From assembly GCA_012522415.1 (NCBI GenBank), contig JAAYKM010000003.1, forward strand, positions 1 through 37,684: a stretch of DNA of 37,684 nucleotides, written 5' to 3'. Below, piece by piece: positions 2,063-27,688 of the stretch. Below the pieces are notes generated by a model that was not told where the DNA came from, did no database searches, and worked only from the letters and a program-made list of their open reading frames with translations. The translations under genes and the position numbers were made by a program. Each line of letters opens with the position of its first letter. Within the stretch, counting starts at the first letter, position 1. Source of the DNA: Deltaproteobacteria bacterium (GTDB lineage: Bacteria > Desulfobacterota > Syntrophia > Syntrophales > JAAYKM01).

Positions 2063-3196
2063 TTACTTCTTCGGCTTGGCCAGAACCTTCTCCGCCAACT
2101 CTTCTCCATAGATGTGGCCAAGGGAAATCTGGCGCCGCAGTTCGAGGAAATCCACCGTGCTGGAACCGGTCTTTGCTTGCGTATTGAAAGCGTTGAAGCC
2201 CATCCAGGCATCACCGTTCATGTTCGCACCGAGCCAGTATCTTGCATGAGTCTTCGTCGTATCCCAGAAGAATCTCTTCTTCAGGCGGATCGTCTCAACC
2301 GCCTTCATCAGGCACATGGGGAAGGTATTCGTCAAAGTCCAGATCATGCCGTTGATGTGGTTGTCCAGAAGCGTGAAATCCGTAGCCAGGGTTTTCAGGT
2401 AATCGTTGCCCTCTTTCAGGGCCGCACCGCTTTTCATTTCACCATAGACGATTTCCCCGTTGTCCACATACTTGTCCGTGATGACGCGGGGGTCGCGGAC
2501 CCAGTTGCCGTCCTTGTCCTTTTTCACCGGCAGAGCCTTGCCTATCAACCCCAGGCGCTCCATTTTATAGGAACTGTAAGGAATGTTCGAAACACAGTTC
2601 CACAAGGCGTGCTCCATGGAAAGATTCCAGGGCAGGAAGTCCGTGGACCCGCCATCGGGTGAGGAGCCCGCACGGGTACCGACCTGTCCGAAGACCGCCG
2701 TGTCAGCGGAGATATTGATATCACAGGCCTGACCGATTTCCTGTCCACCCCCAATCCGCATCCCGTTGACGCGGCAGATCGTGGGAACACCGCAACTCAA
2801 TATGGCATCGACCATTGCCCCGAACAGATAGATATAATCGGAATAGTCTTTTGGACGGCGTGTGTAATACTCTGCGTATTCCTTGGTGTTACCGCCGGTG
2901 CAAAAGGCCCGGTCGCCAACGCCCGTAAAGACGGCCGCTACGATTGACTTGTCCATGGAAGCCTTGTGGAAGCCTGCAATAACGCCCTTTACCATGTCCG
3001 TTGTGTAGGAATTGTACTGCGCAGGGTTATTCAAGGTGATTCGTGCCGTGTAAAGCCCTTCCACCGCATTCCCCTTGGGATCGAGAAGAGGTGCCTTCTC
3101 GTAAATCGTGGAGGGCGCTTCGGCCCGGTTAAACCGGTCGTCAAACAGATTATGATCCTTCAAAACATTGTCTCTTTCCAACCAATCTAGTGCCAT
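2063..3196 (-). CDS. bamA: BamA-type 6-oxocyclohex-1-ene-1-carbonyl-CoA hydrolase
   Basis: A 377-residue crotonase-fold enzyme of the BamA/Oah family, which hydrolytically opens the ring of 6-oxocyclohex-1-enecarbonyl-CoA to 3-hydroxypimelyl-CoA in anaerobic benzoyl-CoA degradation. Family signatures visible are YNSYTTDMVKGVI (residues 61-73), FTGVGDRAFCTGGNTKEYAEYY (from about 90), the glycine-rich oxyanion-hole segment RVNGMRIGGGQEIG (142-155) and DGGSTDFLP. Length fits the family, which is longer than ordinary enoyl-CoA hydratases (about 260). The segment FGQVGTRAGSS differs from the FGQAGP-type sequence I remember for canonical BamA, so this could be a divergent paralogue with an alicyclic or modified substrate. 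The start ATG has AAGGGG upstream. Confidence 0.88.
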   Translation of the reverse strand: MALDWLERDNVLKDHNLFDDRFNRAEAPSTIYEKAPLLDPKGNAVEGLYTARITLNNPAQYNSYTTDMVKGVIAGFHKASMDKSIVAAVFTGVGDRAFCTGGNTKEYAEYYTRRPKDYSDYIYLFGAMVDAILSCGVPTICRVNGMRIGGGQEIGQACDINISADTAVFGQVGTRAGSSPDGGSTDFLPWNLSMEHALWNCVSNIPYSSYKMERLGLIGKALPVKKDKDGNWVRDPRVITDKYVDNGEIVYGEMKSGAALKEGNDYLKTLATDFTLLDNHINGMIWTLTNTFPMCLMKAVETIRLKKRFFWDTTKTHARYWLGANMNGDAWMGFNAFNTQAKTGSSTVDFLELRRQISLGHIYGEELAEKVLAKPKK

Positions 3197-22621: not shown

Positions 22622-23635
22622 ATGAAAGAAACGGATGAAAAGCGGGGGTTAAGCCGCAGATCATTTCTCAGGACCACCGCGGGCACCCTGGCCGTTACGG
22701 GGTTCACCGGGATCGGAACATTGCGTGCCGCGGAGGCGGGAAAACTGGCAACGCTCATCGACCTCAGCCTCTGCGACGGTTGTCCCACCATGACCGTACC
22801 CGCCTGTGTTTCCGCCTGCAGAGATCTCAACCGGGACACGATTCCGGCCATAGCCGACCCCATCCCGGTACCCTGGCCGCGGAAAACGGTGGAGGACTGG
22901 TCGGACAGGCGGGAGATCTCCGACCGGCTTACCCCGTACAACTATCTCTATGTACACCGGGTCGAGATCGACCAGGGAGGCAGACAAAGAACCCTGTTCG
23001 TCCCACGGCGCTGCATGCACTGCGACAACCCGGCCTGCGCAACGATCTGCCCCTTCTCGGCGAACCACAAGTTCGAAAACGGCGCCGTCGTCATCAACCA
23101 GAACCGATGTTTCGGCGGCGCCAAGTGCAAGGCGGTCTGCCCCTGGAAGATCCCGCAGCGCCAGTCCGGTGTGGGCATTTATCTGCACATCCTGCCGGAC
23201 TACATGGGAAACGGTGTCATGTACAAGTGCGATCTCTGTCACGATCGTCTCACCCGGGGCGAACAACCGGCCTGCATCGAGGCATGCCCGCGGCAGGCCA
23301 TGCTCATCGGGCCGCGTGAAGAGATTCTCGCGGAGGCGGAAGGACGCGCCCGAAATATGAGGGGTTACCTCTACGGGAAAGACGAAAACGGGGGCACCTC
23401 GACGATCTACGTTTCGCCCGTGTCCTTCGATTTGATCAATGCATCCATGGCCCGTGAACCGGGCAGACCGGGGATGAAGCCGGGTGTGAAAAGAGAAATG
23501 GCCGAATCAGACGGTCTGGGAAAGGCCGTTCTTGCGGCACCCGCCCTCGGTGCCGTCGTCGGCGCGGCGGGCGCTTTCAGGTGGCTTGCCGGACGAAAGA
23601 CAAGGCTGGTAAAGGAGGGGAAAAACAATGGCTGA
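22622..23635 (+). CDS. Tat-exported 4x[4Fe-4S] ferredoxin subunit (FdnH/HybA-like)
   Basis: A 337-residue electron-transfer subunit. It has a twin-arginine signal (SRRSFLR, 11-17) and a hydrophobic stretch, then four cysteine clusters: LCDGC...CVSAC, CMHCDNPACATICP, CFGGAKCKAVCP and CDLC...CIEACP, the pattern of the beta subunits of formate dehydrogenase and related enzymes. A C-terminal hydrophobic helix (LGKAVLAAPALGAVVGAAG) should anchor it to the membrane, with the clusters outside. GAGGAG precedes the ATG. It overlaps the cytochrome b gene by 8 bases. No molybdopterin catalytic subunit lies nearby, so its electron partner is unknown. Confidence 0.88.
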   Translation: MKETDEKRGLSRRSFLRTTAGTLAVTGFTGIGTLRAAEAGKLATLIDLSLCDGCPTMTVPACVSACRDLNRDTIPAIADPIPVPWPRKTVEDWSDRREISDRLTPYNYLYVHRVEIDQGGRQRTLFVPRRCMHCDNPACATICPFSANHKFENGAVVINQNRCFGGAKCKAVCPWKIPQRQSGVGIYLHILPDYMGNGVMYKCDLCHDRLTRGEQPACIEACPRQAMLIGPREEILAEAEGRARNMRGYLYGKDENGGTSTIYVSPVSFDLINASMAREPGRPGMKPGVKREMAESDGLGKAVLAAPALGAVVGAAGAFRWLAGRKTRLVKEGKNNG

Positions 23636-24362
23636 CCGGATTATCAGGGAGAAAAACCGGGCCGTCCGACACGGGTTTGTGGAGCTTACCGAACATTGGG
23701 TCATCGCCCTATCCGGTCTTGCCCTCGTCCTTTCCGGATTGTTCCAGAGGCCCGTGGCGAATCGTTATTACATCTCTTCCGTGCCTGGACTGGGCTGGGC
23801 CGGGGACTACTTCGTCTCCCTGAAGGTCCACTATGCGGCCTCTCTTCTGTTTATCGCCGCGGCCCTTTTCCATGTCCTCTATCACGGTTTACGGGGCGAC
23901 CTGGGGATGATCCCCCGCAGGGGGGATATTCGGGCCTCCATGGAGGTAATGAAAAGTTTTTTCGGAAAGGGGGAGGAACCGCCTTTTCACAAGTACCTGC
24001 CCGAGCAGCGCCTGGCCTACGCGGGAATGGCGGCGATCATCGCCGTGCTCATCGTCTCCGGGCTTGTCAAGGTGTACAAGAATATCTATGCCCCGGACAT
24101 GTCCTACACGGTTCTCCTCTGGGCGACATGGGCGCACAACATCGCTCTCATCCTCTTTGTCCTCGCCTTTATCGCCCACGTCGGAGCCGTCCTGCTCAAA
24201 CCGAACCGCCCCCTGTTCAGGGGGATCCTGACCGGGGCCGTGCGCCTGGACTACGCCGAACGCCGCCACCCGCTGTGGATCGCGGAGATCGCCGGTGAAG
24301 TTCCGCCCAAAAAAGAGACATCGGAACCCCGGCAAAGGGAAACCACCCCTGCCGATCCCTGA
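23628..24362 (+). CDS. Membrane cytochrome b (FdnI/thiosulfate-reductase-like)
   Basis: A 244-residue di-heme cytochrome b subunit with four hydrophobic helices (about 22-45, 67-90, 128-150, 165-190). Likely heme-ligand histidines sit in TEHWVIALSG, KVHYAASLLF, ALFHVLYHG and FIAHVGA. This family links periplasmic iron-sulfur subunits to the quinone pool. GGAGGGG lies before the ATG, inside the end of the ferredoxin gene. In a syntroph the pair could carry electrons between a periplasmic donor such as formate dehydrogenase or hydrogenase and menaquinone, supporting reverse electron transfer; that is inference. Confidence 0.85.
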   Translation: MADRIIREKNRAVRHGFVELTEHWVIALSGLALVLSGLFQRPVANRYYISSVPGLGWAGDYFVSLKVHYAASLLFIAAALFHVLYHGLRGDLGMIPRRGDIRASMEVMKSFFGKGEEPPFHKYLPEQRLAYAGMAAIIAVLIVSGLVKVYKNIYAPDMSYTVLLWATWAHNIALILFVLAFIAHVGAVLLKPNRPLFRGILTGAVRLDYAERRHPLWIAEIAGEVPPKKETSEPRQRETTPADP

Positions 24363-24467
24363 GCCCTTCCCCGCCGGGGACCACGACCCCATAGGAACTA
24401 CTGTTCCAGCGGGGCCGTCGGATTCCCCGAGACTGTGTGATTCCGGCGAGATCGGCCCGGAATCATC

Positions 24468-24496
24468 TTGACGGGTGGGCCGGCTCACCGTATATT
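24468..24496 (+). promoter_or_regulatory. Promoter of the cysteine-rich secreted protein
   Basis: TTGACG (24468-24473), exactly 17 bases, then TATATT (24491-24496): a near-consensus promoter with the start site expected near 24503, about 47 bases before the ATG. Confidence 0.8.
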
Positions 24497-24549
24497 CAGC
24501 CGCATCGAAGCAACAAGGCACACGCCACAAAATTTCAAACGGAGGTTTT

Positions 24550-25239
24550 ATGATGAAAAAAACAAATCCCCTGACCGTATCTGTGCGTCTTGCCATCCTG
24601 GCCGGTATTATGTTTTTCCCTGCCGGTCTCGTTGCCGCCGAACCATCGAAAGGTCAGGTGACAAAAATGTGGGAAAACCAGTACAAAAATGCCAAAGTTC
24701 TCGACATCAAATCAAAGGGCGGGGAAAGACTGACAAAACAGCTCCATAACAAGCATTACATCACCCCCATCGGAACCTGCTGGGATTACGACGTGACCGA
24801 AATGCAGAAGTGCGGATGCCGCCTGTTCAGCAAGGCCAGTGTCTGCTGCCGCAAGGTCTCTTCAACGGATTGCGAGATTCGCATCGGAAACGCGACTCCC
24901 GTGGACTGTACCAAATTCGGGAAACCGAAGTACGGCCTGTCGGGAAACACCGAACCGCAGGATTGCAGGGAACGCCGCGTTCAGATGGATTGCAACAATC
25001 GCCGCGACCTGGTCTTCGGACCCGGCAGTGCCGTGGGACCGTGCTATGGGACCGGCGGCGTGGCCCAGGACTGGCCGCCGGCTTTCGTCTGTCCCAACGG
25101 GCAGAATACGGTGCTTGACTTCCACAACGGTAAATGCGGCCCGACTCCGGAGGATTGCGGCTGCCGGCTCGTGGAAGAGTGTTCGTCCGAAGAGGGCCTG
25201 TCCTGCTATCGGAACTGGAAAAACAAACTGGGCCGTTGA
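24550..25239 (+). CDS. Secreted cysteine-rich protein of unknown family
   Basis: A 229-residue protein with a clear signal peptide (MMKKTNPL, hydrophobic core, cleavage after LVAA). The mature part has 16 cysteines, all after about residue 75, including CGCRLFSKASVCC and later CGCRLVEECSSEEGLSC, which look like two copies of one small disulfide module flanking a central part with QDCRERR and QMDCNNRR. There is no CxxCH, so it is not a c-type cytochrome, and no lipobox. GGAGG lies 4 bases ahead of the first ATG; the second ATG is also possible. It has its own strong promoter and stands as a single gene. Function unknown; an extracytoplasmic disulfide-stabilised or metal-binding role is a guess. 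Confidence 0.75.
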   Translation: MMKKTNPLTVSVRLAILAGIMFFPAGLVAAEPSKGQVTKMWENQYKNAKVLDIKSKGGERLTKQLHNKHYITPIGTCWDYDVTEMQKCGCRLFSKASVCCRKVSSTDCEIRIGNATPVDCTKFGKPKYGLSGNTEPQDCRERRVQMDCNNRRDLVFGPGSAVGPCYGTGGVAQDWPPAFVCPNGQNTVLDFHNGKCGPTPEDCGCRLVEECSSEEGLSCYRNWKNKLGR

Positions 25240-26022: not shown

Positions 26023-26868
26023 ATGAAAGATGCCAGAACAACAAAACCAGTGAATTCCCCCGGGGTTCAACGGGGGGATACCCTTTTGCTTGTCCCGGAA
26101 GACACCGCCACCGAACAATGCCTGATGAAGCTGATGCTTCTCATGTTCAGCAGACCGGAGTTCACGGTGGAATATTTCTCGCCCTATTCGGAACCGTTCG
26201 CTCCCCCCCTGAAGACCGCCATTGACCGGGGTGACATGTTTTTACTCAAATCGGAGAGCTTTTACTACAAGGATCACCGAAGGGAACGAACCTACGTGTT
26301 CATACCACCGGCCATGGCGGAGGCAAAATCCTGCCCGAAATGGAAACGGGAACGGGTTGCGAAATCCCCGGTCTTTGTCAAAAGCACGCTCTCCCTCTCA
26401 AACAGAAAAAAGCAAGAACTCGCCGTATGGTTTGGCACAGTGGGTGCGGACGCAGACCACCAGGCAAGGCGGATAGAAGGGTTCACCTATGACATCTTCC
26501 TGAGTTACAGTGAAAGGGACCGGTCCCTCGCCTCGGAAGTCGGCGGTAAGCTCGAAAGGGCGGGAGCGCGTGTTTTCATGGCACAGCAGCCCGGGGCGAC
26601 AGGCGGCGTTTTCACCGAGGAACTGAGGATCTCACTTCGTGAATCACGGGAGATCTGGCTCATTGTGTCCCCGGACAACTTGCGCAGCGAGTGGGCCATG
26701 GCCGAGTGGGGCGCCGCCTGGGTTCTGGGGAAAAAACTGGTTTCCGTGTTGCACGGCTGCCCCGCGCCGCGGTTTCCGTTGAAACCCGGCGATTTATGCT
26801 GCGTCGGCGTCACGGGGGCGGGGGAATTGATAAAGGACCATCTGAACACAATTCACGACAGCCCCTAA
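26023..26868 (+). CDS. TIR-domain protein with an unrecognised N-terminal region
   Basis: A 281-residue protein. The C-terminal part (about 155-246) is a TIR domain: YDIFLSYSERDRSLASEV opens it, a BB-loop-like QQPGATGGVF follows, and SEWAMAEWGAAW carries the S-x-W-x-x-x-E pattern (Ser222, Trp224, Glu228) of TIR NADases. The N-terminal about 150 residues (GDTLLLVPED, FTVEYFSPYSEPFAPPL) match nothing I recognise and are presumably the sensing part. No signal peptide or membrane segment is seen. The start is uncertain: no good ribosome site precedes the ATG. Bacterial TIR proteins often deplete NAD+ or make signal nucleotides in antiphage defence; no defence partner such as a ThsA-type effector is nearby, so the role here is inference. 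Confidence 0.78.
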   Translation: MKDARTTKPVNSPGVQRGDTLLLVPEDTATEQCLMKLMLLMFSRPEFTVEYFSPYSEPFAPPLKTAIDRGDMFLLKSESFYYKDHRRERTYVFIPPAMAEAKSCPKWKRERVAKSPVFVKSTLSLSNRKKQELAVWFGTVGADADHQARRIEGFTYDIFLSYSERDRSLASEVGGKLERAGARVFMAQQPGATGGVFTEELRISLRESREIWLIVSPDNLRSEWAMAEWGAAWVLGKKLVSVLHGCPAPRFPLKPGDLCCVGVTGAGELIKDHLNTIHDSP

Positions 26869-27235
26869 GGGGGCAAACAGCAAAGCGGCCGTAAAGGGGG
26901 CGGAGAGTCGCGTCGGCGTGAAATCGTCGTGTCGAACCGTAAATTTCACCTTGATTTTACCCATGCCATGATGCAGAATAGACTTGTCAAAGTGGTTTCA
27001 TGGAATTCATGTGGGGGACCGTATCCGACCCCGCATCGAAATCGAACTTTCAAATACATGTAATTGTTGCCACTCCCACCGGCGCAGGAAGCGCTGGATC
27101 GTATCGGGTGAAAAGGCGGATCATTGTAACCGGGGGCAGCGGAGAAAAAAACACCGAGCACCCTTTGATGTCCGTAAACCGAATCATGGTGTTGATTATT
27201 ATAAACCCCACTATCATTCAACAAAGGAGGATTCT
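26869..27235. other. Intergenic region between the TIR and CBS genes
   Basis: These 367 bases hold no supported gene. Several short A+T-rich stretches occur ahead of the CBS gene but no clean promoter was identified. Confidence 0.4.
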
Positions 27236-27688
27236 ATGGACAGCAGCATCTTGAACGCGGCAACAGTTTTAAAGAACAAGGGCGGCAAACTCTACAAAGT
27301 ACAGCTTGGAGAAATTCTGAAGGATTGCGTCAGCCTGATGAACAGGAAAAGGATCGGTGTCCTCATTGTCCTTGATGATAACGGCAAGCTGGCGGGCGTG
27401 ATTTCCGAGCGCGATATCATGCGCCTGGTGGAAAGCGAAGAAACCGACCTATGGGAAAAGCCGGTAAAGGATGTCATGACACCCAGAAAAAAACTTTACA
27501 CGGTGCCCAAAGACACGCGGCTGAATGATGTAATGGGCCTGATGACGGAAAAACGCGTCCGGCATCTTCCCGTCATGGACAGCGACATGGTAATGGGCAT
27601 TATTTCGATCGGCGACGTGGTGAAGAACCTTCTCGACGAAGCAGCCTTTACGACGGAACAGTTGAAAAAGTACATTCAGGGATATTGA
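27236..27688 (+). CDS. Two-CBS-domain protein
   Basis: A 150-residue stand-alone CBS pair. The first CBS repeat runs about 15-70 (LMNRKRIGVLIVLDDNGKLAGVISERDIM) and the second about 77-135 (VMTPRKKLYTVPKDTRLNDVMGLMTEKRVRHLPVMD, then GIISIGDVVKNLL). Such modules bind adenine nucleotides and work as energy or redox sensors. A strong AAGGAGG precedes the ATG at 27236, which rules out the longer upstream frame. It is monocistronic and followed by a terminator. The target is unknown. Confidence 0.92.
   Translation: MDSSILNAATVLKNKGGKLYKVQLGEILKDCVSLMNRKRIGVLIVLDDNGKLAGVISERDIMRLVESEETDLWEKPVKDVMTPRKKLYTVPKDTRLNDVMGLMTEKRVRHLPVMDSDMVMGIISIGDVVKNLLDEAAFTTEQLKKYIQGY

Follow-up and report, generated by a model that had tools for sequence, protein, structure and literature searches.

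In this study, we characterized a gene in a 37,684-nucleotide stretch of DNA from a deltaproteobacterial genome (contig JAAYKM010000003.1; the whole stretch is referred to here as the window) that encodes a member of a protein family that is rare, seemingly undescribed, and marked by a strict 16-cysteine signature. Sequence features and comparison with relatives suggest that the product may be a Sec-exported, multi-disulfide, non-catalytic binding or structural protein of the periplasm or cell surface, a reading to which we give about an even chance of being correct. The signature defines a small family in organisms in which oxygen-free disulfide formation has been little studied, and because the culture-collection strain Trichlorobacter thiogenes carries a member, the family can be tested experimentally. 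The gene and its product have the following features:

24541 to 24545, forward strand: ribosome binding site GGAGG, read from the sequence, preceding the ATG
24550 (or 24553) to 25239, forward strand: gene for the exported 16-cysteine protein, 229 codons or amino acids counted from 24550
24550 to 24639, forward strand: predicted Sec-type signal peptide, residues 1 to 30, with predicted cleavage between VAA and EPS
24640 to 24900, forward strand: N-terminal mature part, a helix and curved sheet in an NTF2/cystatin-like arrangement in a low-confidence model
24778 to 25206, forward strand: cysteine-rich region, C77 to C219, with the motifs GTCWDYD, CGCR-x-F-x-KAS-x-CCR, and CGPTPEDCGC, from alignment and motif reading

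The enclosing open frame spans 24475 to 25239, with the probable ATG at 24550 or 24553; position 24468 belongs to a promoter-like site and is not the start codon. The gene is single-copy in its own genome and its third-position G+C content is unremarkable (0.68; mean, 0.65). Comparison with the two nearest relatives by the NG86 method yielded a dN of 0.29 to 0.30 and a dS of 1.4 to 1.7 (dS was uncomputable for 8 of 28 NG86 pairs), demonstrating that this is a real gene under purifying selection, with a dN/dS of about 0.2. A preliminary description of this DNA had proposed a signal peptide, and this feature-based prediction is upheld by a hydrophobic core at residues 14 to 28, the VAA-EPS junction that follows it, and the conservation of the cleavage site ([AV]-x-A, then EP) in the alignment of relatives with complete N termini, except for the acidobacterial relative (L013), the sole family member with a lipobox (LAAC).

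The 16 cysteines of the window protein (residues 77, 88, 90, 99, 100, 108, 120, 139, 148, 165, 181, 196, 203, 205, 211, and 219) all lie beyond residue 75, as first described, and make up 7.0% of the protein, the highest content among the 35 genes picked in the window (mean of 1.6% and maximum of 5.1% for the other 34). Cysteines close in sequence form two CxC motifs, both CGC, at 88 and 203, and one CC at 99. The protein has no CxxC, the hallmark of ferredoxins, rubredoxins, and zinc ribbons, and no Fe-S or Tat motif; the absence of a heme motif and a lipobox noted earlier also holds, given that there is no CxxCH of the kind found in c-type cytochromes and no [LVI][ASTVI][GAS]C at the end of the signal peptide, the first cysteine being residue 77. 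The two CGCRL modules of the preliminary description are present (residues 88 to 92 and 203 to 207), but relatives keep only CGC in the second, and we rejected the idea that the CGC modules arose by internal duplication because only 12 residues align between the two.

Relatives were identified in eight other genomes, with mature parts 50 to 62% identical to that of the window protein. The nine genomes of the family comprise the window's own, two that belong to a single other genus within the same order, five from the Trichlorobacter/Geobacter group, and one Vicinamibacteria metagenome-assembled genome (MAG). In overlapping genome samples, carriers amounted to 3 of 41 genomes among the relatives of the window's organism (its own included), 3 of 155 in the class, 2 of 395 in an evenly sampled set from the phylum, 5 of 141 in the order of T. 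thiogenes (one genus only), and 1 of 396 in the phylum sample of the Vicinamibacteria MAG, namely, that MAG. Two genomes of the genus of the window's organism, only 72% and 75% complete, gave no family match, and in one of the five Trichlorobacter-group carriers (G662) the gene seems to be split across two contig ends. A contig scan with a three-row alignment as the query recovered 6 relatives among 28 candidate stretches, five apparently from genomes already counted and the sixth from the Vicinamibacteria MAG; an earlier contig scan with the single window protein as the query had recovered no relatives among 23 stretches. Plasmids and phages gave chance matches only (E of about 8 to 10), and none of 59 pattern stretches in viral contigs turned out to be a relative.

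All 16 cysteines are invariant in the nine aligned mature rows (9 of 9), which represent four groups; one row (L012) is missing its N-terminal end yet begins before the first cysteine. The rows also keep GTCWDYD, CGCR-x-F-x-KAS-x-CCR, and CGP-x-P-x-DCGC, and tryptophan, tyrosine, phenylalanine, glycine, and proline residues are conserved between the cysteines, which are spread over 143 residues. The orthologs in T. thiogenes, the Geobacter group, HGW-Deltaproteobacteria-19, and the Vicinamibacteria MAG thus resemble the window protein in the 16 cysteines, GTCWDYD, CGPxPxDCGC, and an export signal, but they differ from it in three respects. The mature window protein has 16 cysteines, whereas each of the seven other complete proteins counted has 18, that is, the 16 plus one pair, which is C-terminal in the rows of the same order (two) and of the Trichlorobacter group (five) and N-terminal in the acidobacterial L013. 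The same-order and Trichlorobacter-group rows carry a C-terminal extension that is absent from the window protein and from L013, and L013 alone carries the lipobox. We rejected truncation of the C terminus of the window protein, as a tblastn search downstream of the stop codon found no remnant of the extension (best E, 0.7).

The family matched nothing characterized in the libraries that we searched. No significant match to the window protein was found in Pfam, NCBIfam, PHROGs, PADLOC, or PDB sequences (best PHROGs E, 0.51), and an eight-member family alignment recovered no credible match (best E among members, 0.19 in Pfam and 0.64 in NCBIfam), in keeping with the earlier statement that the protein belongs to no recognizable family; a known family with an assigned function, which would have contradicted that statement, was looked for in these libraries and not found. 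Full-text literature searches found no description of the family, and the terms lipocalin, cysteine, and Glov_01 do not occur in the excerpted passages of PMC3403914. Compared to bacterial cysteine-rich exported disulfide proteins in general, the window protein is similar in its signal peptide, its even number of cysteines, and the presence of an encoded candidate disulfide-forming enzyme, but it has no family in common with them in the libraries searched.

High expression of such an exported protein had been called unusual in an anaerobe, a claim weakened by the apparent disulfide-forming potential of the genome itself. The Pfam models PF07884 (VKOR) and PF02600 (DsbB) matched nothing in the five Desulfobacterota carriers tested, two of which belong to the Trichlorobacter group, and each matched only the acidobacterial genome among six carriers; PF01323 (DSBA) matched in three of the six. 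The PF01323 protein in the window's own genome (G000) and in G653 has an in-frame TGA at U-P-x-C and no evident signal peptide, and we take it to be, probably, a cytosolic FrnE-like selenoprotein. A search with PF13462 pointed to a membrane protein of G024, one of the same-order carriers, in which a VKOR-like region bearing CDTDC and CPFC precedes a thioredoxin domain, and the window's own genome encodes a 38%-identical relative with the motifs CGTSC, CPYC, and CGPC. PF07884 gave no match to either of these two fusions, the membrane half of which appears VKOR-like from its motifs. The fusion is present in five of nine genomes (G024, G000, G005, G001, and G002), relatives of it were found in none of the four Trichlorobacter-group genomes tested, and G005 also encodes a DsbC-type isomerase, with a DsbC-like protein, identified by reading, in G653. 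The loci concerned are as follows:

L028, about 1501 to 2082, and L027, about 1501 to 2073: DsbA/FrnE-like protein with in-frame TGA, in the window's own genome and in G653
L038, 1510 to 2493, reverse strand: VKOR-like/thioredoxin fusion gene, from motif reading
L032, 811 to 2019, forward strand: VKOR-like/thioredoxin fusion gene, from motif reading
L037, 1369 to 2586, forward strand: VKOR-like/thioredoxin fusion gene, from motif reading

The view that the host lacks disulfide enzymes was dropped for the window's own genome once this fusion emerged. Because a fusion with CGTSC, CPYC, and CGPC is encoded, a maturation route for a multi-disulfide exported protein is plausible, and the window's organism is plausibly able to make periplasmic disulfides; the fusion, which the Pfam VKOR model overlooks, is a candidate oxidase in Syntrophales-like anaerobes. 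We propose that signal peptidase I would cleave at the VAA-EPS junction to leave a mature protein of about 199 residues, which would then be oxidized in the periplasm, probably by the VKOR-like/thioredoxin fusion, although this pairing of enzyme and substrate is presumptive. About eight putative disulfides would hold together a compact domain whose small N-terminal part combines helix and sheet and whose C-terminal part is cysteine-rich, and the folded product could act as a protease-resistant, non-catalytic binder or structural element, periplasmic or surface-located, with the acidobacterial relative as a putative lipid-anchored form. A disulfide-stapled exported protein is an ordinary kind of molecule.

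An AlphaFold2 model built from nine rows is weak (pLDDT, 68.2; pTM, 0.48) and was not used as a basis for any cysteine pairing, and a three-row model was set aside (pLDDT, 48.8). Neither Foldseek nor a viral structure library gave a match at an E of 0.001. VIA-align placed mature residues ~1 to 95 on IcmL-like, affimer/cystatin, and NTF2-like chains with Z scores of 5.0 to 6.8, a range below 8 that may reflect only a common arrangement; these alignments barely cover the C-terminal cysteine-rich part. The top match was an IcmL-like protein (Z, 6.8; root mean square deviation, 3.1; 77 residues), with DotI, TraM, and VirB8 also listed, and by this resemblance of its N-terminal part to IcmL/DotI/VirB8 periplasmic domains the protein could be an envelope component of a secretion or conjugation-like machine. 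We consider this very improbable. The helix and curved sheet of the model resemble these domains, but the match is tied with affimer/cystatin rows (Z, 5.0 to 6.6) and not above background, there is no sequence match in Pfam or the other libraries searched, neither the IcmL/DotI/VirB8 nor the cystatin-like domains cover the cysteine-rich C-terminal half, and no secretion genes were recognized beside the gene.

The adjacent genes raise another alternative, and here gene names are readings by eye unless a family search is cited. Upstream of the gene lies the following pair:

22622 to 24362, forward strand: genes for a Tat-type HybA/HmcB-like Fe-S protein and a b-type cytochrome, from family searches; best NCBIfam scores are below the curated cutoffs and the family naming is approximate

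On the same strand, 188 nt separate the end of the cytochrome b gene from the start of the window gene, and the protein could be an accessory or electron-transfer partner of this pair in a quinone-linked module. In the Trichlorobacter group, moreover, the gene is near an apparent [NiFe]-hydrogenase operon, which encodes a protein 27 to 28% identical to the window's Fe-S protein. We nonetheless regard a partnership as improbable: the window gene has its own promoter-like site, its product is free of heme, Fe-S, and Tat motifs, such genes are not adjacent in G005, G024, or L013, and the Trichlorobacter-group genes are convergent to the hydrogenase-like operon, hence on separate transcripts. No catalytic subunit was recognized near the pair, and its adjacency is probably incidental. 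Among other lineages, the gene follows an apparent acyl-CoA synthetase gene by 73 nt in G005 and G024, and a lipocalin gene directly precedes it in three of the four Trichlorobacter-group loci compared (L010, L011, and L022, but not L009), the lipocalins of L010 and L011 by reading:

L022, 10437 to 11099, reverse strand: lipocalin, directly upstream of the family gene, PF08212

A conserved operon was rejected, given that the lipocalin gene is not adjacent in L009 and the hydrogenase-like operon is convergent. None of the acyl-CoA synthetase, hydrogenase operon, lipocalin, and Fe-S/cytochrome genes was recognized in the L013 neighborhood, and there is no neighbor or operon partner common to different lineages.

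Rather than forming disulfides, the CGC, CC, and other cysteines might bind soft metals, for storage or detoxification by a periplasmic or extracellular metal-thiolate protein in metal-rich anoxic sediments. The 16 invariant cysteines with their CxC and CC motifs would suit this explanation, and several carriers belong to the Trichlorobacter/Geobacter group, whose members are metal reducers; the paired gain of cysteines would also fit metal binding. It is nevertheless doubtful, as the conserved residues among the widely spread cysteines are folded-domain-like, no metal-resistance gene was recognized beside the gene in the loci read (neighbors mostly by eye), and the genome encodes the VKOR-like/thioredoxin protein. 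We favor disulfides over metal because CxxC is lacking and cysteines are gained or lost in pairs; the invariance of the 16 cysteines, their even counts, and purifying selection also speak for the disulfide reading, but the weak structure model, the limitation to four independent lineages, and the silence of the Pfam VKOR model on the fusion count against it, as do the negative results for VKOR and DsbB in two Trichlorobacter-group genomes and for the fusion in four. A bolder combination, in which the family constitutes a new fold class, a ~140-residue domain with 16 invariant cysteines and no CxxC that serves at the surface of cells living without oxygen, whether as a module of eight disulfides or as a periplasmic thiolate protein for soft metals, and that is sporadic in anaerobic Desulfobacterota and an acidobacterium, appears to us rather unlikely.

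The upstream region contains two further elements:

24438 to 24465, no strand assigned: inverted repeat TGATTCCGG-N10-CCGGAATCA with perfect 9-bp arms, separated by two bases from the -35 box downstream
24468 to 24496, forward strand: sigma-70-like promoter site TTGACG-17-TATATT, 10/12 consensus match

The strong promoter of the preliminary description is present as a 10/12 site, but it does not imply high expression, both because seven other sites are equal or better and because a consensus match does not equal expression. Across both strands of the window, eight sites reach at least 10/12, one of them 11/12, and by sequence the site would rank as good but not outstanding. The upstream regions of four Trichlorobacter-group genes share a different candidate, TTGCGG-16-TATAGT (8/12), at a similar distance from the ATG, and the acidobacterial upstream region has no promoter-like site above 6/12. 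The inverted repeat has one match in the window, with no mismatches, and at least one match with up to three mismatches arose in 5 of 100 shuffles; it is possibly an operator. That the gene has no cotranscribed partners is plausible, but a scan found no forward-strand terminator in the 188-nt gap after the cytochrome b gene, so read-through from that gene is possible.

Elsewhere in the window, the product of positions 2063 to 3196 (reverse strand) reads like a 6-oxocyclohexene-carbonyl-CoA hydrolase of anaerobic benzoate breakdown, a likeness that is consistent with an anaerobic host. Downstream of the 16-cysteine gene, positions 26023 to 26868 (forward strand) encode a TIR-domain protein (PF13676), unassigned in its N-terminal half, with weak similarity to Thoeris and other defense TIR proteins, and positions 26984 to 27688 (forward strand) encode a protein with two CBS domains.
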